From an uncultured Bacteroidales bacterium (lineage in GTDB: Bacteria; Bacteroidota; Bacteroidia; Bacteroidales; UBA932): DNA of 8,578 nt. This document shows, in pieces, positions 135 through 8,578 of the stretch. The position numbers and the translations under genes were made by a program. Numbering within the stretch: the first letter of the stretch is position 1; each line of letters starts with the position of its first letter. A model generated the notes under the pieces. It was not told the DNA's origin and searched no databases. It saw nothing but the letters and a program-made list of their open reading frames with translations. The stretch lies in NCBI GenBank assembly GCA_946405485.1, contig CAMJHJ010000098.1, positions 1 through 8,578 of the forward strand, in the 5' to 3' direction.

Positions 135-956
135 TCAGTATATGACCTTGACCCAGGGCATTTTCTCTTCTAAAAACTGCTTCTGGGCGACGGGGATGTC
201 GCAGCAGAGGCGGTCGGCACCGAGGTAGATGCCGAGGACGAAGTCTTCGATCTTCTGGTTCGGCCAGAGGCTGACGGTGAGGCCGGCTTCATGGGCTTTT
301 TCGACCATGGCGCGGGAGGTGCCTTCCAGTCTGCAGCCGAGGGCTTTGATGCCGACGGTCTTTGCCAGGGCTATTGTCTCTTCATTAATCGGCTTGCCGA
401 CGATGAGGAGGAGTTCGGCGTCGGGATGGTGCTCTTGGAGGTAGCGGAGGCCGCGGTAGTCGGATGAGGTGAAGACGAGTTGGGAGCCGTGGGTCTTGAT
501 GGACCGGACAGCGGCATAGACCTTTTCCACATACTCTTCGAGCCGGTCCTGGGGGTAGAGCGCCGCGGGGGTTGTTTTCATCTCGAATTCGACATAGAGC
601 CCGTCTTTACCGTCGAGAAAGCGGCAGAATTCTTCGAGGGAGAGGACCGGGTTGCCCTTTTTGGTCCGGAGGCTCCGGATCTCGGCGGCGGTCTTTTCTT
701 CGAAGACGCCGGTGCCGTCGGTCGTCCTTTCGAGGGTGTGGTCGTGGGTCAGGAAGAGGGCTCCGTCACGGGTCATCCGGATGTCAGTTTCAAAGCCGGT
801 GTAGCCGGCGTCCCAGCTTTCCCGGAAGGCTTGGGCGGTGTTTTCGTCCCGTTCGAGACGTCCTCCGCGATGGGAGAAGGCCCGGACGGTCTGGGTTTGG
901 GCATAGGCCCCTGCCGCGAGGCAGAGAAGAATCAGGACGGAGGTAAGTCTTTTCAT
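135..956 (-). CDS. Secreted glycerophosphodiester phosphodiesterase family protein (GDPD)
   Basis: The product is 273 residues and belongs to the GDPD TIM-barrel family. This family uses a divalent metal to hydrolyse glycerophosphodiesters to glycerol phosphate and an alcohol. The first 20 residues form a signal peptide ending A-Y-A-Q, so the protein is exported. Family motifs are present in order: H29-R30, E38-N39, the metal-binding E56-x-D58, D64-G65, the catalytic H71-D72, E123-x-E125-x-K127, and a late Cys-Cys-Asp-Ile-Pro segment. An in-frame extension reaches 1286, but it is proline/serine-rich, lies over the rhamnosidase gene and lacks a signal peptide. ATG at 956, four bases after the rhamnosidase stop, is therefore the start. 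It is the last gene of the operon. The natural substrate cannot be read from sequence: phospholipid head groups, teichoic-type polymers and glycerol-phosphate-decorated glycans are all possible. The gene is bracketed by a 17-bp direct repeat. Confidence 0.92.
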   Translation of the reverse strand: MKRLTSVLILLCLAAGAYAQTQTVRAFSHRGGRLERDENTAQAFRESWDAGYTGFETDIRMTRDGALFLTHDHTLERTTDGTGVFEEKTAAEIRSLRTKKGNPVLSLEEFCRFLDGKDGLYVEFEMKTTPAALYPQDRLEEYVEKVYAAVRSIKTHGSQLVFTSSDYRGLRYLQEHHPDAELLLIVGKPINEETIALAKTVGIKALGCRLEGTSRAMVEKAHEAGLTVSLWPNQKIEDFVLGIYLGADRLCCDIPVAQKQFLEEKMPWVKVIY

Positions 957-960
957 AGCG

Positions 961-3693
961 CTATTTGCTTTGCAGGATATATTTGCCGGAAGGGAGGAAG
1001 ATCTTGGTGGTTCCACCTTCGGTGTAGCTGGCGAGCTTGCCGGGGTTGAGGTTGAAGCGGGCGGGAGCCACGACGGTGGCGGTGGAGCCGACGGGGATTT
1101 CGATCCGCCAGACGATCTTGTGTCCGATGATGGTCCATTCGCTGGAAATCGTGCCCTGAGGGGAGTCGAAGGAGGCTTTGACGTGGTCGAGGCCTTCGGG
1201 GAAACAGGGCTGCATCCAGATGCGCCGGAAGGCGGGGGCGGCGGCGATGATCCCGGAGGCGGTGGGCTCGGGAGCGATGCCGGCAAGGTCTTCGTAATAC
1301 CAGCGCAGGAGGTCGCCGATGAGGTGCGCGTGGCAGCCGGAGTTCATCGAGGGACCGGCCTCGTCGCCGTTCCAGAGCTCCCAGACAGTGGTGGCGCCCT
1401 TCTTGATCATATAGCCCCAGCTGGGATAGGTGTCGATCGTGCAGAGTTTGTAAGCAAGGTCGGCGTGCCCGTTGCGGGTCAGGACTTCCATCACGTAGCG
1501 CATGCCCACGTTTCCGACGCAGAGGTGCCCGTCGAAGTCGTTTTCAATGCGGTTCACGATGTTTTCCACAACGGCCTGCTTGTGCGCGGCCGGGACGATG
1601 TCGAAATACACCGGGATGAGGTTGGCGGTCAGCGTGTTGTTGTCATAGCAGTTGCGTTCCGGGTCGAAGAATTCGCGGTTGTAGGCCTCGACGACCCGCG
1701 CCTTCATGCCCTCGTAGAACGGCACGTCGGCATCGTTCCCGGTGAGGCGGGCGAACTTCATCATCAGGTCGAGGGTGCCGACCAGGATGCCGGTCTGGAG
1801 GATCGGACTGTTCGTGATGCGGGAGGGGTCGGTCGCATGGATGAGCTCGGGCGACTCCGGCGGGACGATCCAGTCCTTGTATTCGTCGTGTTTCATCCGG
1901 AAGATGCCGTCTTCCTTGAGGTTCTTGGCCGTCGCATATTCGAGCCAGGCCTTCATGGCCGGGTAGTAGGTGCGGATGCCGCTGTCGTCGCCATAACGCG
2001 AGTACAGCATCTCGGCCATGTAGAGGAACACGGAGGAATGGGACATGTCGTCCGTGTAGATGCTCCAGTAGCGCGGGGAGACGACGGAGATGCGCTGCCC
2101 GTTCTTCATCGAGTCATAGACGTCGTCCATCCATTTGCGGTACAGGGGAGCCACATTGAAGAGATAGGGCTCGCCCCAGATCGTGCCGCCGCGGTCTCCG
2201 ATCCAGCCCTGGCGCTCGTCGCGCTGGGGGCAGTCGATGGGCATGCCGCGGTAGTTGCTGCGCAGGCCGCAGCGGATGTTCTTGTACAGGCGGTTGAGGC
2301 GCTCGTCGGAGCATTCGAAACTCCCTTTGGGGTCCATCTTGTCCCAGATGACCTGCCCGACCAGGTTGCGGTTGATAGGCGTAGCGGTGACCCCTTCGAT
2401 TTCCATGAAACGGAAGCCGTGCATGGGGAAAGTGGGGGTCCAGGTGAACTTTCCGTCGGAGGCCGGAGTGTACTGGTCGGTCGCCAGGGTGCGGCGCAGG
2501 CTGGCCATGTTGAGGCTGTCGCCGGCGTCGGTGAGTTTCTCGGCATATTTGAAGACGATCGGCTGCCCGGCCTTGCCTTCGAGGGTCATGATGACATAAC
2601 CGACCATGTTCTGCCCAAAGTCCACGATATAGCGGTCGCGGCCCACCTTGCGCACGCTCTGGGCCATGATCTTGTCCTGGATGGCCATGTCGTCCATCGT
2701 CATCGCGCGCATCCTTCCCTTGGGGGCGCCCATCTCGTCCACGCCTTTCCAGCGGCGGTCGCCCTTGAAGCCCACGGTGTTCCAACCCGGCATCTCGAGG
2801 CGCGCGTCATAGTATTCGCCGTCGTACTCGTTGTTGGAGGTGACCGGACCTCCGCTGGTGCCGGTCCAGTCCGTGTCACTGATGACCACGTCCTGCCGCC
2901 CGTCCTTGTAGCGGATCTTCAGCACCAGCTTGACACGCGGGTCGGAAACGCTGCGCAGGGTCTTGGCGCTCAGGGACTGATAACGGCCGCAGCCCAGCAG
3001 CACGGCGAGGGTGTTGTCTCCTTTCTGGACCAGGGAGGTCACGTCGTAGGTACGGTAGTAGACGACCTTGTCGAACAGGACCGGCGGATGCATGAACATC
3101 TGCGGACAGACGCGCTTGCCGTTGATGGAAGCGTCCCCGATGCCCAGGGCGGACATATAGAGTTTGGCGGAGGCGATCTTGTCTCCGGCCCGGAAGTCCT
3201 TGCGCAGGTATTTGGCGGGCAGGTGGCAGGGGTCTTCCTTGAGTTTTTCGCGTTCGCTGATGCCGATCCACTTCGCGCCCATCCAGGCAGCCGAGTCGCG
3301 GAGGCCGGTGGACCAGCGGGCGCGCGTTTCGTCACGGGTCACGCCGGCGCTTGTCCAGACCTTCACCGCCCATTCATAATCGGTCTCGCTCTCCAGGGCG
3401 GGACCGCCGTAAGGCACGAGCACGTTCTCGAAAGACGGGACCTTGCCGCTGTCCCAGACCTTCTTGCCGTCGGCACCCCGCCAGACCGTGATCTGGTAGG
3501 CCGTCTGCAGGGTCTTGTTCTCCCGGGAGTCGACCTTCCAGGAGAAGCGGGGCGTCTCACAGTCAATGCCTTCCGGGTCGGTCCGAAGTTCCGTGGTCAG
3601 GTCTTTGACCCCGACTTTGGGAGCCTTGGCGGCGGAGAGGAGGAGCAGGGCGGCCGGCACGAGGGCCAGCGCCAGGAGAGTGGATTTATTCAT
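961..3693 (-). CDS. Secreted alpha-L-rhamnosidase, glycoside hydrolase family 78
   Basis: The product is 910 residues, normal for bacterial GH78 enzymes, which release terminal alpha-L-rhamnose by an inverting mechanism. Residues 1-22 form a signal peptide with no lipobox, so a soluble periplasmic or secreted enzyme is likely. An N-terminal beta-sandwich (about 28-130, with T-P-R-F-S-W near 47-52) is followed by the Bac_rhamnosid_N-type domain (about 160-340, with N-G-K-R-V at 191-195). Then comes an (alpha/alpha)6 barrel (about 460-810) and a C-terminal beta domain. The signature D-C-P-Q-R-D-E-R-Q-G-W-I-G-D at 487-500 supplies acidic active-site residues. The second conserved glutamate is E772 in T-T-V-W-E-L-W. 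No key motif is missing. The ATG at 3693 overlaps the preceding beta-helix gene by 8 bases, suggesting translational coupling. The TAG stop at 963-961 is four bases before the phosphodiesterase start. Substrate (pectin, arabinogalactan, flavonoid or bacterial polysaccharide) is unresolved. Confidence 0.95.
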   Translation of the reverse strand: MNKSTLLALALVPAALLLLSAAKAPKVGVKDLTTELRTDPEGIDCETPRFSWKVDSRENKTLQTAYQITVWRGADGKKVWDSGKVPSFENVLVPYGGPALESETDYEWAVKVWTSAGVTRDETRARWSTGLRDSAAWMGAKWIGISEREKLKEDPCHLPAKYLRKDFRAGDKIASAKLYMSALGIGDASINGKRVCPQMFMHPPVLFDKVVYYRTYDVTSLVQKGDNTLAVLLGCGRYQSLSAKTLRSVSDPRVKLVLKIRYKDGRQDVVISDTDWTGTSGGPVTSNNEYDGEYYDARLEMPGWNTVGFKGDRRWKGVDEMGAPKGRMRAMTMDDMAIQDKIMAQSVRKVGRDRYIVDFGQNMVGYVIMTLEGKAGQPIVFKYAEKLTDAGDSLNMASLRRTLATDQYTPASDGKFTWTPTFPMHGFRFMEIEGVTATPINRNLVGQVIWDKMDPKGSFECSDERLNRLYKNIRCGLRSNYRGMPIDCPQRDERQGWIGDRGGTIWGEPYLFNVAPLYRKWMDDVYDSMKNGQRISVVSPRYWSIYTDDMSHSSVFLYMAEMLYSRYGDDSGIRTYYPAMKAWLEYATAKNLKEDGIFRMKHDEYKDWIVPPESPELIHATDPSRITNSPILQTGILVGTLDLMMKFARLTGNDADVPFYEGMKARVVEAYNREFFDPERNCYDNNTLTANLIPVYFDIVPAAHKQAVVENIVNRIENDFDGHLCVGNVGMRYVMEVLTRNGHADLAYKLCTIDTYPSWGYMIKKGATTVWELWNGDEAGPSMNSGCHAHLIGDLLRWYYEDLAGIAPEPTASGIIAAAPAFRRIWMQPCFPEGLDHVKASFDSPQGTISSEWTIIGHKIVWRIEIPVGSTATVVAPARFNLNPGKLASYTEGGTTKIFLPSGKYILQSK
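962..978. repeat. 17-bp direct repeat, copy in the rhamnosidase 3' end
   Basis: This copy covers the last codons of the GH78 gene (I-L-Q-S-K and most of the stop codon) and matches 105-121 at 16 of 17 bases. The spacing between copies is 857 bases. Recombination between them would remove the phosphodiesterase gene exactly and leave the rhamnosidase with an intact C-terminus ending in TAA. Confidence 0.75.
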
Positions 3694-5626
3694 CGTCTAA
3701 CCATTTATTCTTGCGGATTCCGATTTCCCCGAGGGGAATCTCCCGGATGCCCAGGGGGTGCAGGATATCCGGGGTGCAGAAGTACGCCGCGTCCCGGCCC
3801 CCGGAGGAGACGGAGACGTTGCCGCCCTCGATCTGGGGTGTCGTGGCGCGGAAATAGAGAGAGTCGCAGTCGACCAGGAGGTTCTGGCGCACGACGTTGA
3901 CATCGATCGTCCGGCCCCAGTTCCGCGCCTCGGGATAGCGGGTCAGAAAGGCCTCGGACTCCATGTCCACCTCGCGGCAGATGCGCTCGCGGATGCGGTC
4001 CCAGGTCGCATGCCAGAGGGAATCGCCGTAGGGCGTGAAGGAGACGGCATAGGGGCAGTCGAAGAAGACGTTCTCTTCGATCACATTGTCGCTGCCGCCG
4101 TGGATCTGGATGCCTCCGAACTCGACGGAGCCGCAGCGTTCGAAGAGGTTGCCGCGGATCTCCACGCCGGAAATCAGGTCGTCCAGGCGGATGCCGGCGA
4201 CGCCGTAACGCGTGCCGCCGCGGATGTCGCGCCAGTGGTTGTAGCGCATGACGATGCCGCGCATCGAGGGGTTGAGATAGAGGTCGAATCCGCCCTGGTC
4301 GTCCGATTCCCGGGCGACCCTTTCGATCCGGTTGAATTCGGCGACGAGGTCGTTGCCGGCCAGGGAAAGGGCTGAGGAAGGGCCGTCGCGCAAGACACAG
4401 TGGTGGATCGTGATGCCGCAGCCGTCGGCCGTAAAGGCGCCGTTGTAGGTACGGTGGAAGCGCTCGTAATCCTCAACGAGGGTGTTGGCGCAGACGTGGT
4501 CCGCCCGTAGGAAACGGGACCGGTCTCCCCCGCGCATCGTGATGCCGGAGGCTTCCAGGTGGCGCAGGACACAGCCGTCGATGCGGCAGCGCTCTCCCCC
4601 GTCCACGCGCAGGGCTTCGGTGCCGAGGTTTTCCATCCGACAGTCCAGGATCTTCACGTCGCGGCCGCCATTGACGCGGAGCGCCCCTCCCCTGCTCTCG
4701 CAGAAGCTCAAGCCCTTGACCGTGACGCCTTCGCAGTCTTCCAGGGTCAGCATGAACTTGGCCTGAAGCGTCGAGAGCGTAGTCCTGGCGTTTTTGGGGT
4801 CTACGCCCTCGGGCATATACCAGTACAGGCGACGCGTATCGCGGTCGAGGTACCATTCGCCGGGGGCGTCGATCTCGCAGAGGAGATTCAGGCCGAAAAA
4901 GCGCAGGCCGTGACGGAAACGCTTGCCCGGGAGCTCCATGATCCTTTGGCGCGGGTCGATGCGCGTGACGGGCTTGTAGCTGTCGGTCCAGTCGAAGAAC
5001 CAGTAACCGCCCACCCAAGGATCCTTCTCGTCGACCCAGCGGTCGATGCGGGGGTCGCTGTATTCAAAAACGCCCTCGACGGTGCCGGAGTTGCCGTTTT
5101 CGACCGGAGGGATGGGGGTTGCGCCCAGGGCCCGGCCGCCATAGACGAAACCTTCGTTGGGGTAACGGGCCAAGGTCTGGACCACACCGTCGCAGAAGAG
5201 CGCCGGACGGTGTCGGTCCTTGACCGGGTCGCCGAGATACTGTTCGTCTAAAGATGTGTAATAGAGCCGCTTGCGTACTTCTTGCGGGAGTTTGGCGAGC
5301 GTCTTTCGCTCGCGTACGCGCTGCCAGCCCTTAACGGGGATGGAACCGCGGAACACGGGCGCCTCGCCTTCTGCCGCTTCGATTACCACGCCGCGGGCGC
5401 CGCTCAGCGTAAGGGGTCCGTCCAGGAAGTAGTTGCCTCCGGCAATGCGGATGGTGTCGCACTCCCCTGCCTTTTCAAGCGCCTTGCGAAGGGTCGCGAA
5501 GGGCCGCTCCCGGGTCCCGGCTCCGGCATCATCCCCTTCCGGGGAAACGTGCCAGACCGCCGGCGACGCCTGGGCGCCTGCCGCGACCAAGACGGCGGCA
5601 AGGAGGGAAAGGGCGGCCTTGTTCAT
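3686..5626 (-). CDS. Secreted right-handed parallel beta-helix protein, probable polysaccharide-active enzyme
   Basis: The product is 646 residues. A signal peptide occupies about residues 1-20. It is followed by the opening W-H-V-S-P-E-G-D-D-A-G-x-G-T...P-F-A-T-L (25-45) that begins many beta-helix carbohydrate enzymes (DUF1565-like). A beta-rich insert (about 95-290) contains P-G-E-W-Y-L-D (255-261) and R-L-Y-W-Y (266-270). Repeated coils of V-x-I-x-x-C or V-x-I-x-x-N type run from about 298 to 605. The segments G-I-R-L-D-D (478-483) and G-G-I-Q-I-H-G-G (504-511) resemble conserved parts of beta-helix glycosidases such as GH141 or GH120. Acidic residues D442-D443 and D482-D483 are candidate catalytic or metal sites, but I cannot verify them. 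The gene starts three bases after the alkaline phosphatase stop, and its TAA overlaps the rhamnosidase start by 8 bases. Co-expression with a rhamnosidase favours a glycan substrate. The fold call is firm and the enzyme family is tentative. Confidence 0.82.
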   Translation of the reverse strand: MNKAALSLLAAVLVAAGAQASPAVWHVSPEGDDAGAGTRERPFATLRKALEKAGECDTIRIAGGNYFLDGPLTLSGARGVVIEAAEGEAPVFRGSIPVKGWQRVRERKTLAKLPQEVRKRLYYTSLDEQYLGDPVKDRHRPALFCDGVVQTLARYPNEGFVYGGRALGATPIPPVENGNSGTVEGVFEYSDPRIDRWVDEKDPWVGGYWFFDWTDSYKPVTRIDPRQRIMELPGKRFRHGLRFFGLNLLCEIDAPGEWYLDRDTRRLYWYMPEGVDPKNARTTLSTLQAKFMLTLEDCEGVTVKGLSFCESRGGALRVNGGRDVKILDCRMENLGTEALRVDGGERCRIDGCVLRHLEASGITMRGGDRSRFLRADHVCANTLVEDYERFHRTYNGAFTADGCGITIHHCVLRDGPSSALSLAGNDLVAEFNRIERVARESDDQGGFDLYLNPSMRGIVMRYNHWRDIRGGTRYGVAGIRLDDLISGVEIRGNLFERCGSVEFGGIQIHGGSDNVIEENVFFDCPYAVSFTPYGDSLWHATWDRIRERICREVDMESEAFLTRYPEARNWGRTIDVNVVRQNLLVDCDSLYFRATTPQIEGGNVSVSSGGRDAAYFCTPDILHPLGIREIPLGEIGIRKNKWLDDE

Positions 5627-5629
5627 CGT

Positions 5630-7021
5630 CTATTTGTAGGCCGCTGCCTGCATGATCAGCCTTCCGATCTCCGCATTGTCTGTCTTGTGGGTGAAAAGCT
5701 GGGAGCCGGCGCCGATGGCGAAGACGGGTACATAGCCGGAGCTGTGGCCGCTGACCCAGTAGACGCGGGCTTTCTGGTTGAGCAGACCGATGGCGGCCGC
5801 GACGATCTTGGCGTTGTCGGCATAGAGGTCCTTGACGGAGCCGGCCTTGCGCTTGGCAACCGTCTCCTCATAGATGTCGCGGAGCGCCTTTTCGTCGTTC
5901 CAGGTCATCTTGACCGAATCCCAGAGACCCAGTTCCTTTTTGAGGAACTCCCGGATCTCGTCCCAGCTGAGGACATCCTGGCGCTCTTCCATCCGCTGTT
6001 TCAACATGGAAGAAAGGACGTTCATGCTGTGCTTCTGCACGCGGAGAAGCGAGAGGTCTTTTTCGTTGCGGGGTCCCAGGGTCAGGAAGCCGGTCTCGTG
6101 GTCGGCCGTGACGACGATGAGGGTCTGTTTCGGGTATTTCTTGTAGAACTCGTAAGCGACCTTGATGCCTTCGTCGAAGTCGATGACTTCATGGATGCAG
6201 GTGGCTGCATCATGGCTGTGGTTGGCGTGGTCGATCTCACTGCCCTCCGCCATCAGGAAGAAGCCCTTCTTGTTGTCCTTCATCAGGAAGGTGACGGCGC
6301 TCTCGACCAGCTGCTTGAAGGTGACATGGTCCTGCTGGTGCTCCGGGGTGTCATTGACCGTATCGATGGAATAGGAGACGTACTGGCCCTCGCCGGGCAG
6401 CATCAAGATTTTCTTCATATCCTTCCAGCCCGCCTGGAACTCCTGGGGGTTGCAAATGGTGTAGCCGGCGGCCTCGAATTGGGGACGCAGGGGGCTGTCG
6501 GGCCTGTTGTTCTCGTGGTAGAGGGCGGCTCCGCCGTAGAAGTCGAATCCGTTGGCAATCATGTCCTGCGCGATCTCGTAATACATCCCGCGGTCCATCT
6601 GATGGGCCTCGAATGCGCCGGGGGTGGCGTGGTTGATGCCCGTGGTGGTCACAATGCCGACCTTCTGGCCCTTGGCTTTGGCCATCTCCGCCATGTTGCG
6701 GACCGGATTGCCGTCCGGGTCGATGCCGAGGCGTCCGTTCTTGGTTTTGACTCCGGTCGCAAGGGCGGTGCCGGACGCGGCGGAATCCGTCACATCACTG
6801 TTGGCAGAATAATGGGTGGCCATCGTAGCGACGGGGAACTGCGAGAAGCAGAGGGGCTCGATGCCAAGTTTGCCCTGGATGGATGCGAGATACATTTCCG
6901 TGAGCTGCACGGAGTTGGCGCCCATGCCGTCTCCGATGAAGAAGAACACATACTTGGGGGTCTGTGCGAGAAGGGAGAGGGAGAGCAGGAACAGGCTGAG
7001 AGCCAATACGATTCTTTTCAT
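5630..7021 (-). CDS. Secreted alkaline phosphatase, PhoA family
   Basis: The product is 463 residues, the usual size for PhoA-type enzymes, which hydrolyse phosphomonoesters with two zinc ions and a third metal. The signal peptide runs to about A19-Q20. Active-site residues are all present: D31 in F-I-G-D-G-M-G, nucleophile S80 in T-D-S-A-A-S, T133, R144, E259, D264 and H268 in E-G-S-E-I-D-H-A-N-H, D307-H308 in T-A-D-H-E-T-G, and H426 in S-G-H-S-S-G. The positions matching E. coli D153 and K328 are both histidine (H131 and H265), as in mammalian alkaline phosphatases. It starts 43 bases after the upstream gene behind an A-rich leader and ends in TAG three bases before the beta-helix ATG. In the operon it could remove phosphate from products of the two phosphodiesterase-type neighbours. 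The name phoA is not assigned because Bacteroidota carry several such paralogs. Confidence 0.95.
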   Translation of the reverse strand: MKRIVLALSLFLLSLSLLAQTPKYVFFFIGDGMGANSVQLTEMYLASIQGKLGIEPLCFSQFPVATMATHYSANSDVTDSAASGTALATGVKTKNGRLGIDPDGNPVRNMAEMAKAKGQKVGIVTTTGINHATPGAFEAHQMDRGMYYEIAQDMIANGFDFYGGAALYHENNRPDSPLRPQFEAAGYTICNPQEFQAGWKDMKKILMLPGEGQYVSYSIDTVNDTPEHQQDHVTFKQLVESAVTFLMKDNKKGFFLMAEGSEIDHANHSHDAATCIHEVIDFDEGIKVAYEFYKKYPKQTLIVVTADHETGFLTLGPRNEKDLSLLRVQKHSMNVLSSMLKQRMEERQDVLSWDEIREFLKKELGLWDSVKMTWNDEKALRDIYEETVAKRKAGSVKDLYADNAKIVAAAIGLLNQKARVYWVSGHSSGYVPVFAIGAGSQLFTHKTDNAEIGRLIMQAAAYK

Positions 7022-7064: not shown

Positions 7065-7907
7065 TTAAAATAGGAGCTTCGCCTTGACCGGGAAATGGTC
7101 GGAGATGAAGGCACGGCCGCCATACGCCTTGGTCAGGGTCTCATATTCCACGCAACTGCCGAATCCTTTCTCCCAGATGAAATCGATAGAAGAATAGTGC
7201 TTTCCCCAATCGTGGGCGGTATCGAGATTGTCGGACTTGGTCGCGATGGCGCGGCAGTCGTACATCTCCTTTTTGATCGGGGCCATCGAAGGATCGTCGA
7301 TGGTCATGTTGAAGTCTCCCGTCACAAGGAGCGGAAGGCCCTGGGGATTCATCTCGGCGATCTTCCTAAGGATCAGGGAGAGGCCTTCGGCGCGGGCTTT
7401 TTCGCCCGTGTTGTCGAGGTGGGTGTTCACCAGGAAGTACTTGTTGCCGGATTTCTTGTCTTTGAGAAGGGCCCAGGTGGCGGTGCGCATGTATTCGGCA
7501 TCCCAGCCCTTGGAGGGCTTGTCTGGGGTCTCGGAAAGCCAGAAAGTGCCCCATTTGAGAAGGGAGGTCGTCCGTTTGTTGTAGAAGATGGCCATGTGCT
7601 CCCCTTCCTGCTTGCCATCCTCCCGGCCGACGCCGACCCATTTATAGTCATCCAGGAAGTAGACCAAGGGCTTGATCTGGCCCAGGAGCGCTTCCTGCAG
7701 GCCCATCACATCCGGATGCTGGTCTTTAATCATCTCCAGGACGGCGTCCGCACGGAGTTCCCAGGAATTGGTGCCGTCTTTGGCCGTGCCGACACGGATA
7801 TTGAAAGACATCGCGGTCACTCCGTTGAAGCTGTCTTTTTCTGGCTTGCCGGCGCCGCAGGGAAGGGCGCAGAGGAGGATCGCAAGGGCGAGGGTGATTT
7901 TTTTCAT
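7065..7907 (-). CDS. Secreted endonuclease/exonuclease/phosphatase (EEP) family protein
   Basis: The product is 280 residues with the DNase I/sphingomyelinase/inositol-phosphatase fold, whose members cleave phosphodiester or phosphomonoester bonds with Mg2+. The signal peptide runs to about residue 19. Its Cys17 follows L-P rather than a canonical lipobox, so a lipoprotein is unlikely. Catalytic motifs are complete and in order: N36 in M-S-F-N-I-R, E72 in G-L-Q-E-A, H163 in V-N-T-H-L-D-N, D198-F-N200 in T-G-D-F-N, D242 in S-S-I-D-F-I, and D270-H271 in I-S-D-H-F-P. An in-frame ATG at 7952 would add 15 residues ahead of the signal peptide and lie upstream of the -7 box, so ATG at 7907 is preferred. 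It is the first gene of the operon. The family does not reveal the substrate; nucleic acid, phospholipid or sugar-phosphate esters are all possible, and export argues against DNA repair. Confidence 0.9.
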   Translation of the reverse strand: MKKITLALAILLCALPCGAGKPEKDSFNGVTAMSFNIRVGTAKDGTNSWELRADAVLEMIKDQHPDVMGLQEALLGQIKPLVYFLDDYKWVGVGREDGKQEGEHMAIFYNKRTTSLLKWGTFWLSETPDKPSKGWDAEYMRTATWALLKDKKSGNKYFLVNTHLDNTGEKARAEGLSLILRKIAEMNPQGLPLLVTGDFNMTIDDPSMAPIKKEMYDCRAIATKSDNLDTAHDWGKHYSSIDFIWEKGFGSCVEYETLTKAYGGRAFISDHFPVKAKLLF

Positions 7908-7939
7908 GCTTGGGGGCGTTTTGTTGCTGTGCCAAAAGA

Positions 7940-7947
7940 CAAATGTA
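7940..7947 (-). promoter_or_regulatory. -7 element of the operon promoter
   Basis: The minus strand reads TACATTTG at 7947-7940, an exact match to TAnnTTTG. Transcription would start near 7933, giving a leader of about 25 bases to the ATG at 7907. A TTTG at 7975-7972 could be the -33 element, but its 24-base spacing is longer than usual. The element faces away from the plus-strand promoter at 7962-7969. Confidence 0.6.
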
Positions 7948-7961
7948 CTCATTTTATTTGT

Positions 7962-7991: not shown

Positions 7992-8578
7992 ATGGAAGAG
8001 ACTCGCAGTTCGAAAGAAGAAACCCGCACTCCTCAGGAAGAAACCCGTTTCGCAGACATCGGAAAAAGAGAGGCCGTCCGGCGGCTATATGAAGGGACCC
8101 CTTTCCGGGAGGTCCGTTCGGTTCAATTCGCGGCGGCAGGAGCCGGCGACACGGTCCAGCAGGCATCGAAACTGCTGCTGGAGGGGATTGATTTCGACCT
8201 GGTCTATTTCCCACTGAAGCATCTGGGCTACAAGGCGGTGGTCGCCGTGACCGGTGAGTTGCTGGCGGCCTTGGCGCATCCGAAGGTTTTGTCGCTTGTG
8301 CTGGGGATTTCCGCCAAACTGGATTTTGCCCAGATCCGGGAGATTTGGGGCGGAGTCGTCGCGGCGGCCCGGGAATATGGCTACGCCGATGTAGCGCTGG
8401 ATCTGGTTCCGTCTCGTAACGGGCTGGCTATCAGTCTTTCCGCAACGGGGTCCGTCTCACAGTTGACGGCCCGCCGACGGCCCGCACCCAAGAGCAAGGA
8501 CCTGCTCTGCGTGTCGGGCAGCCTCGGTGCCGCGTATCTGGGCTTCCGCCTGCTGGAGCGGGAGAAGAGGGCCTTTGA
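7992..8578 (+). CDS. ThiL-like (thiamine-monophosphate kinase family) protein with degenerate active site, partial
   Basis: The frame is open from ATG at 7992 to the right edge, giving 195 residues without a stop. Residues 61-83 (L-L-L-E-G-I-D-F-D-L...P-L-K-H-L-G-Y-K-A-V), 144-150 (G-L-A-I-S-L-S) and 171-192 (L-L-C-V-S-G-S-L-G-A-A-Y...L-L-E-R-E-K) follow the Bacteroides ThiL pattern almost without gaps. ThiL phosphorylates thiamine monophosphate to thiamine diphosphate with ATP and Mg2+. The motifs that do this are altered. No G-D-D-A-A is found near 40-55. T-T-D before L-L-x-E-G is A58-S59-K60. N-x-S-D is V86-T-G-E89. G-G-D-T-T is A135-L-D-L-V139, keeping only the Asp. V-H-F is I-D-F, and S-G-D is S-G-S. 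There is no frameshift in the visible part. The N-terminus carries three E-E-T-R repeats. The likely product is a non-catalytic or repurposed paralog. Comparison is with family motifs as I remember them, not a computed alignment. Confidence 0.8.
   Translation, partial: MEETRSSKEETRTPQEETRFADIGKREAVRRLYEGTPFREVRSVQFAAAGAGDTVQQASKLLLEGIDFDLVYFPLKHLGYKAVVAVTGELLAALAHPKVLSLVLGISAKLDFAQIREIWGGVVAAAREYGYADVALDLVPSRNGLAISLSATGSVSQLTARRRPAPKSKDLLCVSGSLGAAYLGFRLLEREKRAF
7995..8048 (+). repeat. Three-copy 21-bp repeat encoding E-E-T-R heptads
   Basis: GAAGAGACTCGC (7995), GAAGAAACCCGC (8016) and GAAGAAACCCGT (8037) start exactly 21 bases apart. Each encodes Glu-Glu-Thr-Arg, at residues 2-5, 9-12 and 16-19 of the ThiL-like protein. 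The three-residue linkers differ (S-S-K and T-P-Q). The heptad spacing and charge would suit a short amphipathic or disordered N-terminal extension that ordinary ThiL proteins lack. Confidence 0.7.

Follow-up and report, generated by a model that had tools for sequence, protein, structure and literature searches.

The closest described systems to the gene analysed here are the ThiL thiamine monophosphate (TMP) kinases (TIGR01379), represented by AaThiL (3C9R-U), PaThiL of P. aeruginosa (8YKS/8YKU) and AbThiL (5CC8/5DD7). Passages of the PaThiL report (PMC13254938) term the metal ligands Asp30, Asp47, Asp75 and Asp211 strictly conserved, and describe Mg binding by Asp122, contacts of Thr123 and Gly121 with adenine and ribose, contacts of His54 and Tyr189 with TMP, and a cation bridging Asp214 to TMP. 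In AbThiL, according to part of PMC6416309, the active site lies at the dimer interface, one chain binding ATP and the other TMP. Pseudoenzymes, an already known kind of protein, 'lack conserved catalytic motifs', as a passage of PMC10211241 puts it. Here we describe a gene, pseudo-ThiL, at the end of a window of 8,578 nucleotides (the whole stretch of DNA analysed, from contig CAMJHJ010000098.1 of an uncultured Bacteroidales bacterium). Its conserved catalytic motifs are absent while the gene is maintained, and its simplest account is a pseudoenzyme. As a whole, we give a probability of roughly 55% to the explanation that a native thiL has turned into a metal-free ligand-binding or regulatory pseudoenzyme.

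A protein search, capped at 7999 scored candidates, found at least 2603 relatives at E ≤ 1e-3; from the 120 of them that were listed, two alignments were drawn, A1 (n=16) and A2 (n=99). A scan of GTDB species genomes yielded 321 stretches encoding a relative; the best 80, all titled Bacteroidales or Bacteroidia bacteria and largely rumen or gut metagenome-assembled genomes (MAGs), were taken as loci. UBA932/Cryptobacteroides-like lineages are candidates for their family. Residues were tabulated, in PaThiL numbering, for 143 family members (the full-length relative P0001 and 142 loci, 141 of these distinct), the pseudo-ThiL pocket being read from the alignment. Asp30 of the G-D-D motif was present in none of the 143, its loop being deleted in 141. 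Asp47 (T/S-T-D) was Lys or Arg in 117, and the TMP-contacting His54 was Asp in 142 and Asn in one. In N-x-S-D, Ser74 was Gly in 142, and Asp75 was Glu in 111, Pro in 13 and Asp in 10. Gly121 and Thr123 of GGDT were Leu in 133 and 139, respectively. Beyond the window, Asp211 of DxSDG was Phe (109) or Leu (33) in 142 members, and Asp214 was Arg (76), Lys (22) or His (19) in 117. Large hydrophobics thus occupied three ATP/metal positions (Gly121, Thr123 and Asp211) in nearly all members. In contrast, positions 30, 47, 75, 122, 211 and 214 were each Asp in 40/40 intact native ThiL proteins.

The first-pass annotation had proposed a ThiL-family protein with a kept scaffold and at least four replaced motifs. 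The scaffold blocks it quoted (PLKHLGYK and CVSGxLGAAY...LLEREK) are present, and the residue table agrees with an active site that was selectively lost, the same substitutions being common to the 143-member family. Of the four motifs named, G-D-D, T-T-D and N-x-S-D were indeed changed, as were the Gly and Thr of GGDT; Asp122 of the latter was nevertheless kept as Asp in 125 members and as Glu in 14. LEGxxF is likewise shared with ThiL, and in the C-terminal NGG(D/E)D the N, both G and the last D were found in 143/143. The alignments did not bear out a mere shift of the motifs; of 16 aligned relatives, just the five nearest had the GD of a candidate displaced GDD at window residues 52-53 (GAGDT). 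Weighted profiles (effective 78 pseudo and 25 intact rows) had 68 positions in common at ≥80% and seven that were conserved but different, six of them within or adjoining the old active site.

The gene was compared with several protein families. TIGR01379, whose cut-off is 184.15 bits, matched the 195-residue fragment with E 4.7e-19 and 68.5 bits, and P0001 with 119.5 bits, both below it. All 16 A1 members matched this model at E ≤ 1e-3, and pseudo genes scored 105-135 bits in the 26 genomes examined whole and 90-147 bits in the family sample (both described below). The fragment passed the gathering score of Pfam AIRS (PF00586) with 24.9 against 24 bits; precomputed PF00586 matches were found on part, not all, of the 120 best relatives listed. 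An AlphaFold2 model had a confident ThiL fold, with ThiL chains as its best structure matches, whereas HypE (TIGR02124) was rejected (P0001 18.8 bits against a cut-off of 251.6). Thus pseudo-ThiL resembles ThiL in predicted fold, domain order and descent, but two marks of ThiL membership, the metal ligands Asp30, Asp47, Asp75 and Asp211 and the His54 contact with TMP, are lost from it wholly or in most members, and it falls below the curated cut-off.

The first-pass annotation had also noted an open frame. The window's own gene ends with the window; its last two bases, GA, are compatible with the Glu that comes next in near-identical full-length relatives, which are open, and across the 195 residues the gene shares 98-99% identity with seven relatives that are 347-368 residues long, so that a frameshift or stop just past the window was discarded. 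Among 260 extracted stretches a stop codon occurred in four, preceding the ATG in L196 and L204 and lying at the extreme C-terminus of L221 and L234, and in none within the gene body. Initial flags of one internal stop were dropped, L112 and L114 among the flagged genes having no stop in the extracted frame. The pseudo-ThiL of L221 (G375) is shorter than usual by a few C-terminal residues, and in L252 (G419) the frame is unusually long, at 668 residues in the stretch and 832 in the genome search. Could the gene be decaying, as a pseudogene or relaxed leftover? Thiamine pyrophosphokinase (TPK) could make ThiL dispensable and the stepwise motif loss initially fits relaxation; moreover, a few genomes of the family (G325, G364, G398 and G427; 2.9-3.5 Mb) carry TPK with a weak ThiL-like match or none, and native thiL may have been wholly lost in some lineages of the family. 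Against this, dN/dS, a plain Nei-Gojobori count, was 0.067-0.132 in the closest pseudo pairs, the gene body lacks stops, and 99 aligned relatives share 56-98% identity with P0001. The gene is under purifying selection, decay is highly improbable, and we are almost certain that pseudo-ThiL has a maintained function.

Genome content bore on whether that function is still TMP phosphorylation. From the best-80 loci, 26 genomes were examined whole, all 26 of which held the pseudo-ThiL gene; an extra set added G034, G152 and G250 (n=29). A family sample comprised 119 genomes of the family of G003, and an order sample 295 drawn Bacteroidales genomes. The family sample fell into 14 genomes with intact native ThiL, 7 mild, 6 degA, 7 degB, 10 degC and 63 pseudo, with one holding foreign-type ThiL only and 11 a fragment, a weak match or none. 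The labels degA, degB and degC were coined here for sister lineages whose native ThiL has partly degenerated, and 'foreign' ThiL denotes a separate branch of eight rows in our tree, other copies being assigned to it by BLAST likeness and motifs.

Among the 29 genomes TPK was found in 21 and was absent from exactly the eight with ThiL over the cut-off; ThiE exceeded its cut-off in these eight as well as G034 and G152, and ThiC was present in two. The pseudo genomes of the family sample divided in the same way. The eight with foreign-type ThiL (the copy in G343 being a fragment at a contig end) had TPK in 0/8 and ThiE in 8/8, whereas the 55 without it had TPK in 54 (two of these below the curated cut-off) and ThiE in 19, with no ThiE over the cut-off found in the other 36. 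The Fisher p of 2.3e-9 for this split takes no account of kinship and should not be read as a fair probability. TPK or foreign ThiL was thus present in 62/63, and foreign-type ThiL in 8/9 clade genomes lacking TPK. Intact native ThiL occurs with or without TPK, which was found in 7/14 such genomes. Over both samples foreign-type ThiL was found in 16 genomes (L081-L088, L161, L162, L169, L178, L185, L186, L202 and L211), none with TPK; ThiE lay within ~2 kb of it in ten (G005, G010, G020, G324, G336, G343, G344, G354, G361 and G397) and on another contig in six (G003, G004, G006, G012, G022 and G321). No TPP (thiamine pyrophosphate) riboswitch reached the Rfam gathering cut-off in the window and eight related loci.

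Since TPK or foreign ThiL nearly always accompanies pseudo-ThiL, the latter most probably has a different job, and this complementarity speaks against TMP kinase activity. A kinase with migrated residues could be argued from the retention of Asp122, E51-G52 and NGG(D/E)D, and from G372, a degA genome of a sister lineage in which ThiE is present, TPK and foreign ThiL were not found, and only the degenerate native ThiL is left. Yet in the clade all eight genomes that have ThiE but lack TPK carry foreign-type ThiL, TPK accompanies 54 of the 55 others, and the metal ligands called strictly conserved in the PaThiL passages are gone; a surviving kinase is accordingly very unlikely, and we are confident, from residues and gene content, that pseudo-ThiL would lack TMP kinase activity. 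The first-pass annotation had further suggested a regulatory partner of a true ThiL and, as a check, a look for a second intact thiL in the same genome. The two genes do co-occur, the second being of foreign type, in 8/26 and 8/63 genomes, but true ThiL was not found by search in the remaining 18/26 and 55/63, leaving a second copy in a minority of genomes and the partner role with next to no probability. The thiamine-phosphate sensor of the same annotation is a candidate role, to be set beside the Asp in place of the TMP-contacting His54 in 142/143 members, the lack of ThiE over its cut-off in 36 of the 55 genomes without true ThiL, and the riboswitch search of the window and eight loci, which found none at the Rfam cut-off.

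We would picture pseudo-ThiL as a native thiL passed down vertically within a family-level gut/rumen Bacteroidales group in which TPK is the usual maker of TPP. The kinase role may have passed to TPK while the ThiL protein kept or gained another. The protein, which would not phosphorylate thiamine phosphate, is predicted to be a PurM-fold dimer with a closed ATP/Mg half, whose substrate half (E64-G65-D67, D137 and N288-G289-G290-x-D292) may still bind, with no metal involved, a small ligand that is probably anionic; the basic residue often found at 60 and 241 would belong to this half. It would then be a binding or regulatory protein and not a kinase. Ligand binding is moderately favoured over a mere scaffold because several cleft residues are conserved in a new form, although a ligand-binding or regulatory role, as opposed to a pure scaffold or a new enzyme, is in itself a tentative assignment.

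In the scaffold alternative the dimer would act by protein-protein contacts, with the old cleft a filled core. G121L, T123L and D211F/L resemble the filling of an ATP pocket, and the superfamily offers a parallel in SEPHS1, seen in a 'Zincore (SEPHS1:QRICH1)' complex according to the title of a structure entry; a passage of PMC8584027 notes selenophosphate synthesis activity only for the isoform SEPHS2. Like pseudo-ThiL, SEPHS1 has kept the fold of the PurM/AIR-synthase superfamily without its family's reaction; unlike pseudo-ThiL, it is a eukaryotic SelD relative of a different family and has a partner in a solved complex. The polar cleft residues E64, D67, N288, D292 and, largely, D137 are conserved, and no partner gene is consistently linked to pseudo-ThiL, both of which render a pure scaffold rather unlikely. 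Alternatively, the ThiL fold might carry out another reaction, as with PurM, HypE or SelD, a changed chemistry that the first-pass annotation had also considered; several cleft positions have settled on a new and consistent consensus, which is unlike drift. Beyond D67, E64, D137 and D292 there is, however, no new invariant catalytic-like set, the GDD loop is deleted and the T123 and G121 contacts are replaced, so a new enzyme appears less likely still.

Several observations weigh against a metal-free ligand-binding pseudoenzyme. Entropy percentiles within the clade were 71 for position 47, 55 for 75 and 77 for 214; columns 47 and 214 are thus more variable than most and 75 about median, which speaks against a precise new metal-free site, and packing could be the sole purpose of the conserved-but-different positions. 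When all usable pseudo pairs were counted, the median dN/dS was higher (0.21 and 0.26), perhaps partly through dS saturation. One pseudo genome, G419, had neither TPK nor true ThiL found. The gene neighbourhood shows no invariable partner, no constant operon partner being found among the 71 and 139 related loci examined, and no ligand, partner or phenotype is on record for pseudo-ThiL. Gene absences may also be gaps, because the genomes are largely MAGs.

In the order sample 282/295 genomes matched A1 at E ≤ 1e-10, and 26 of the 30 loci fetched (L115 to L140) had intact metal ligands. A quick maximum-likelihood tree of 110 chosen rows, with SH-aLRT support only, grouped 45/45 pseudo rows as a single clade (100) that pairs with degC (99) and lies within native ThiL; degA and degB fell elsewhere, the position of degA being less certain (86), and the tree needs three intact/degenerate changes with mild counted as intact. 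Divergent SufB/D-, SufC- and SufB/D-type genes lay beside thiL in 6/10 wide order-level intact loci, in the one degC locus examined and in 4/5 wide pseudo loci, and were absent from 4/10 order-level intact, 2/2 family-level intact, one degA, one degB and 1/5 pseudo loci (SufC, SufD and, further out, SufS were named by NCBIfam cut-offs in one example each). This linkage was not seen in annotated Parabacteroides, Prevotella (where sppA-lpxK precede thiL) or Bernardetia. Being common to intact ThiL and patchy, it was rejected as a clue to function and used for orthology only; shared with intact thiL, it implies that part of the pseudo genes occupy the native thiL site. Orthology of pseudo-ThiL with Bacteroidales thiL is thus nearly beyond doubt.

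The sister lineages carry the same gene in intermediate states. The seven mild genes had Asp47 replaced by Glu (six) or Lys (one). Asp75 was lost in 23/23 of degA, degB and degC, as it mostly is in pseudo-ThiL. Unlike pseudo-ThiL, degA and degB kept His54 in 13/13 and passed the TIGR01379 cut-off in 13/13 (231.8-251.5 bits), while degC, the sister clade in the quick tree, kept Asp30 in 9/10. Asp47 was mostly lost in both degA (L164, L167, L203, L204, L208 and L209) and degB (L165, L166, L180, L205-L207 and L210). In one gene, intact enzyme and fixed pseudoenzyme are thus the ends of a natural series, with genomes holding TPK or foreign ThiL as the control. That the metal site was lost in three lineages while the protein was kept hints that native ThiL has a second function of older date. 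It is conceivable, if somewhat speculative, that Bacteroidales ThiL has a kinase-independent function under selection, that TPK made the kinase dispensable, and that degA, degB and degC plus pseudo separately lost the metal site while keeping the protein, the largest group having rebuilt the cleft. Such a series suggests that a textbook vitamin enzyme has a role so far overlooked; searches of open-licence PMC found no paper on a degenerate ThiL or ThiL pseudoenzyme.

These genes also bear on annotation. Two of the 120 best relatives listed (P0048 and P0107) are labelled 'thiamine-monophosphate kinase' by one source, and pipelines would probably name degA and degB genes ThiL, as their scores exceed the TIGR01379 cut-off. 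With such scores despite the loss of Asp75, and with relatives so labelled, vitamin B1 synthesis may be wrongly called from the genomes of gut Bacteroidales. In a ruminant vitamin catalogue (PMC13108260), KEGG modules are the basis on which thiamine synthesis is scored, and a term search of its text did not find 'thiL'.

Features of the window, with residue positions of pseudo-ThiL and neighbouring genes
Feature	Position	Strand	Remarks
Pseudo-ThiL gene, N-terminal 195 codons of ~347	7992..8578	+	ATG at 7992; open through 8576 (final full codon) and at window end; TIGR01379 and AIRS matches
Lys60	8169..8171	+	position of metal ligand Asp47 (T-T-D); K 60 / R 57 of 143
Glu64-Gly65 (LEGxxF)	8181..8186	+	kept from ThiL; E 137/143, G 136/143
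Asp67	8190..8192	+	position of His54; Asp 142/143; conserved-but-different column
Gly88-Glu89	8253..8258	+	position of Ser74-Asp75 (NxSD); Gly 142/143, Glu 111/143
Leu136-Asp137-Leu138	8397..8405	+	position of Gly121-Asp122-Thr123 (GGDT); Asp kept; Leu replaces ribose/adenine contacts (133/143 and 139/143)
GDPD-family protein	within 135-1286	-	Pfam
Alpha-L-rhamnosidase	961-3693	-	Pfam
Right-handed beta-helix protein	3686-5626	-	Pfam
Alkaline phosphatase	5630-7021	-	Pfam
Exo_endo_phos-family protein	7065-7952	-	Pfam; divergent from pseudo-ThiL gene

The gene content of positions 135-7021 is ordinary for gut Bacteroidales. A divergent Exo_endo_phos-type gene, its Pfam family taken from a cluster example, was next upstream in 15/71 related loci. 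Downstream of pseudo-ThiL, DUF4923 followed on the same strand in 25/71 and 46/139 related loci, and a convergent DnaE-like gene in 33/139.
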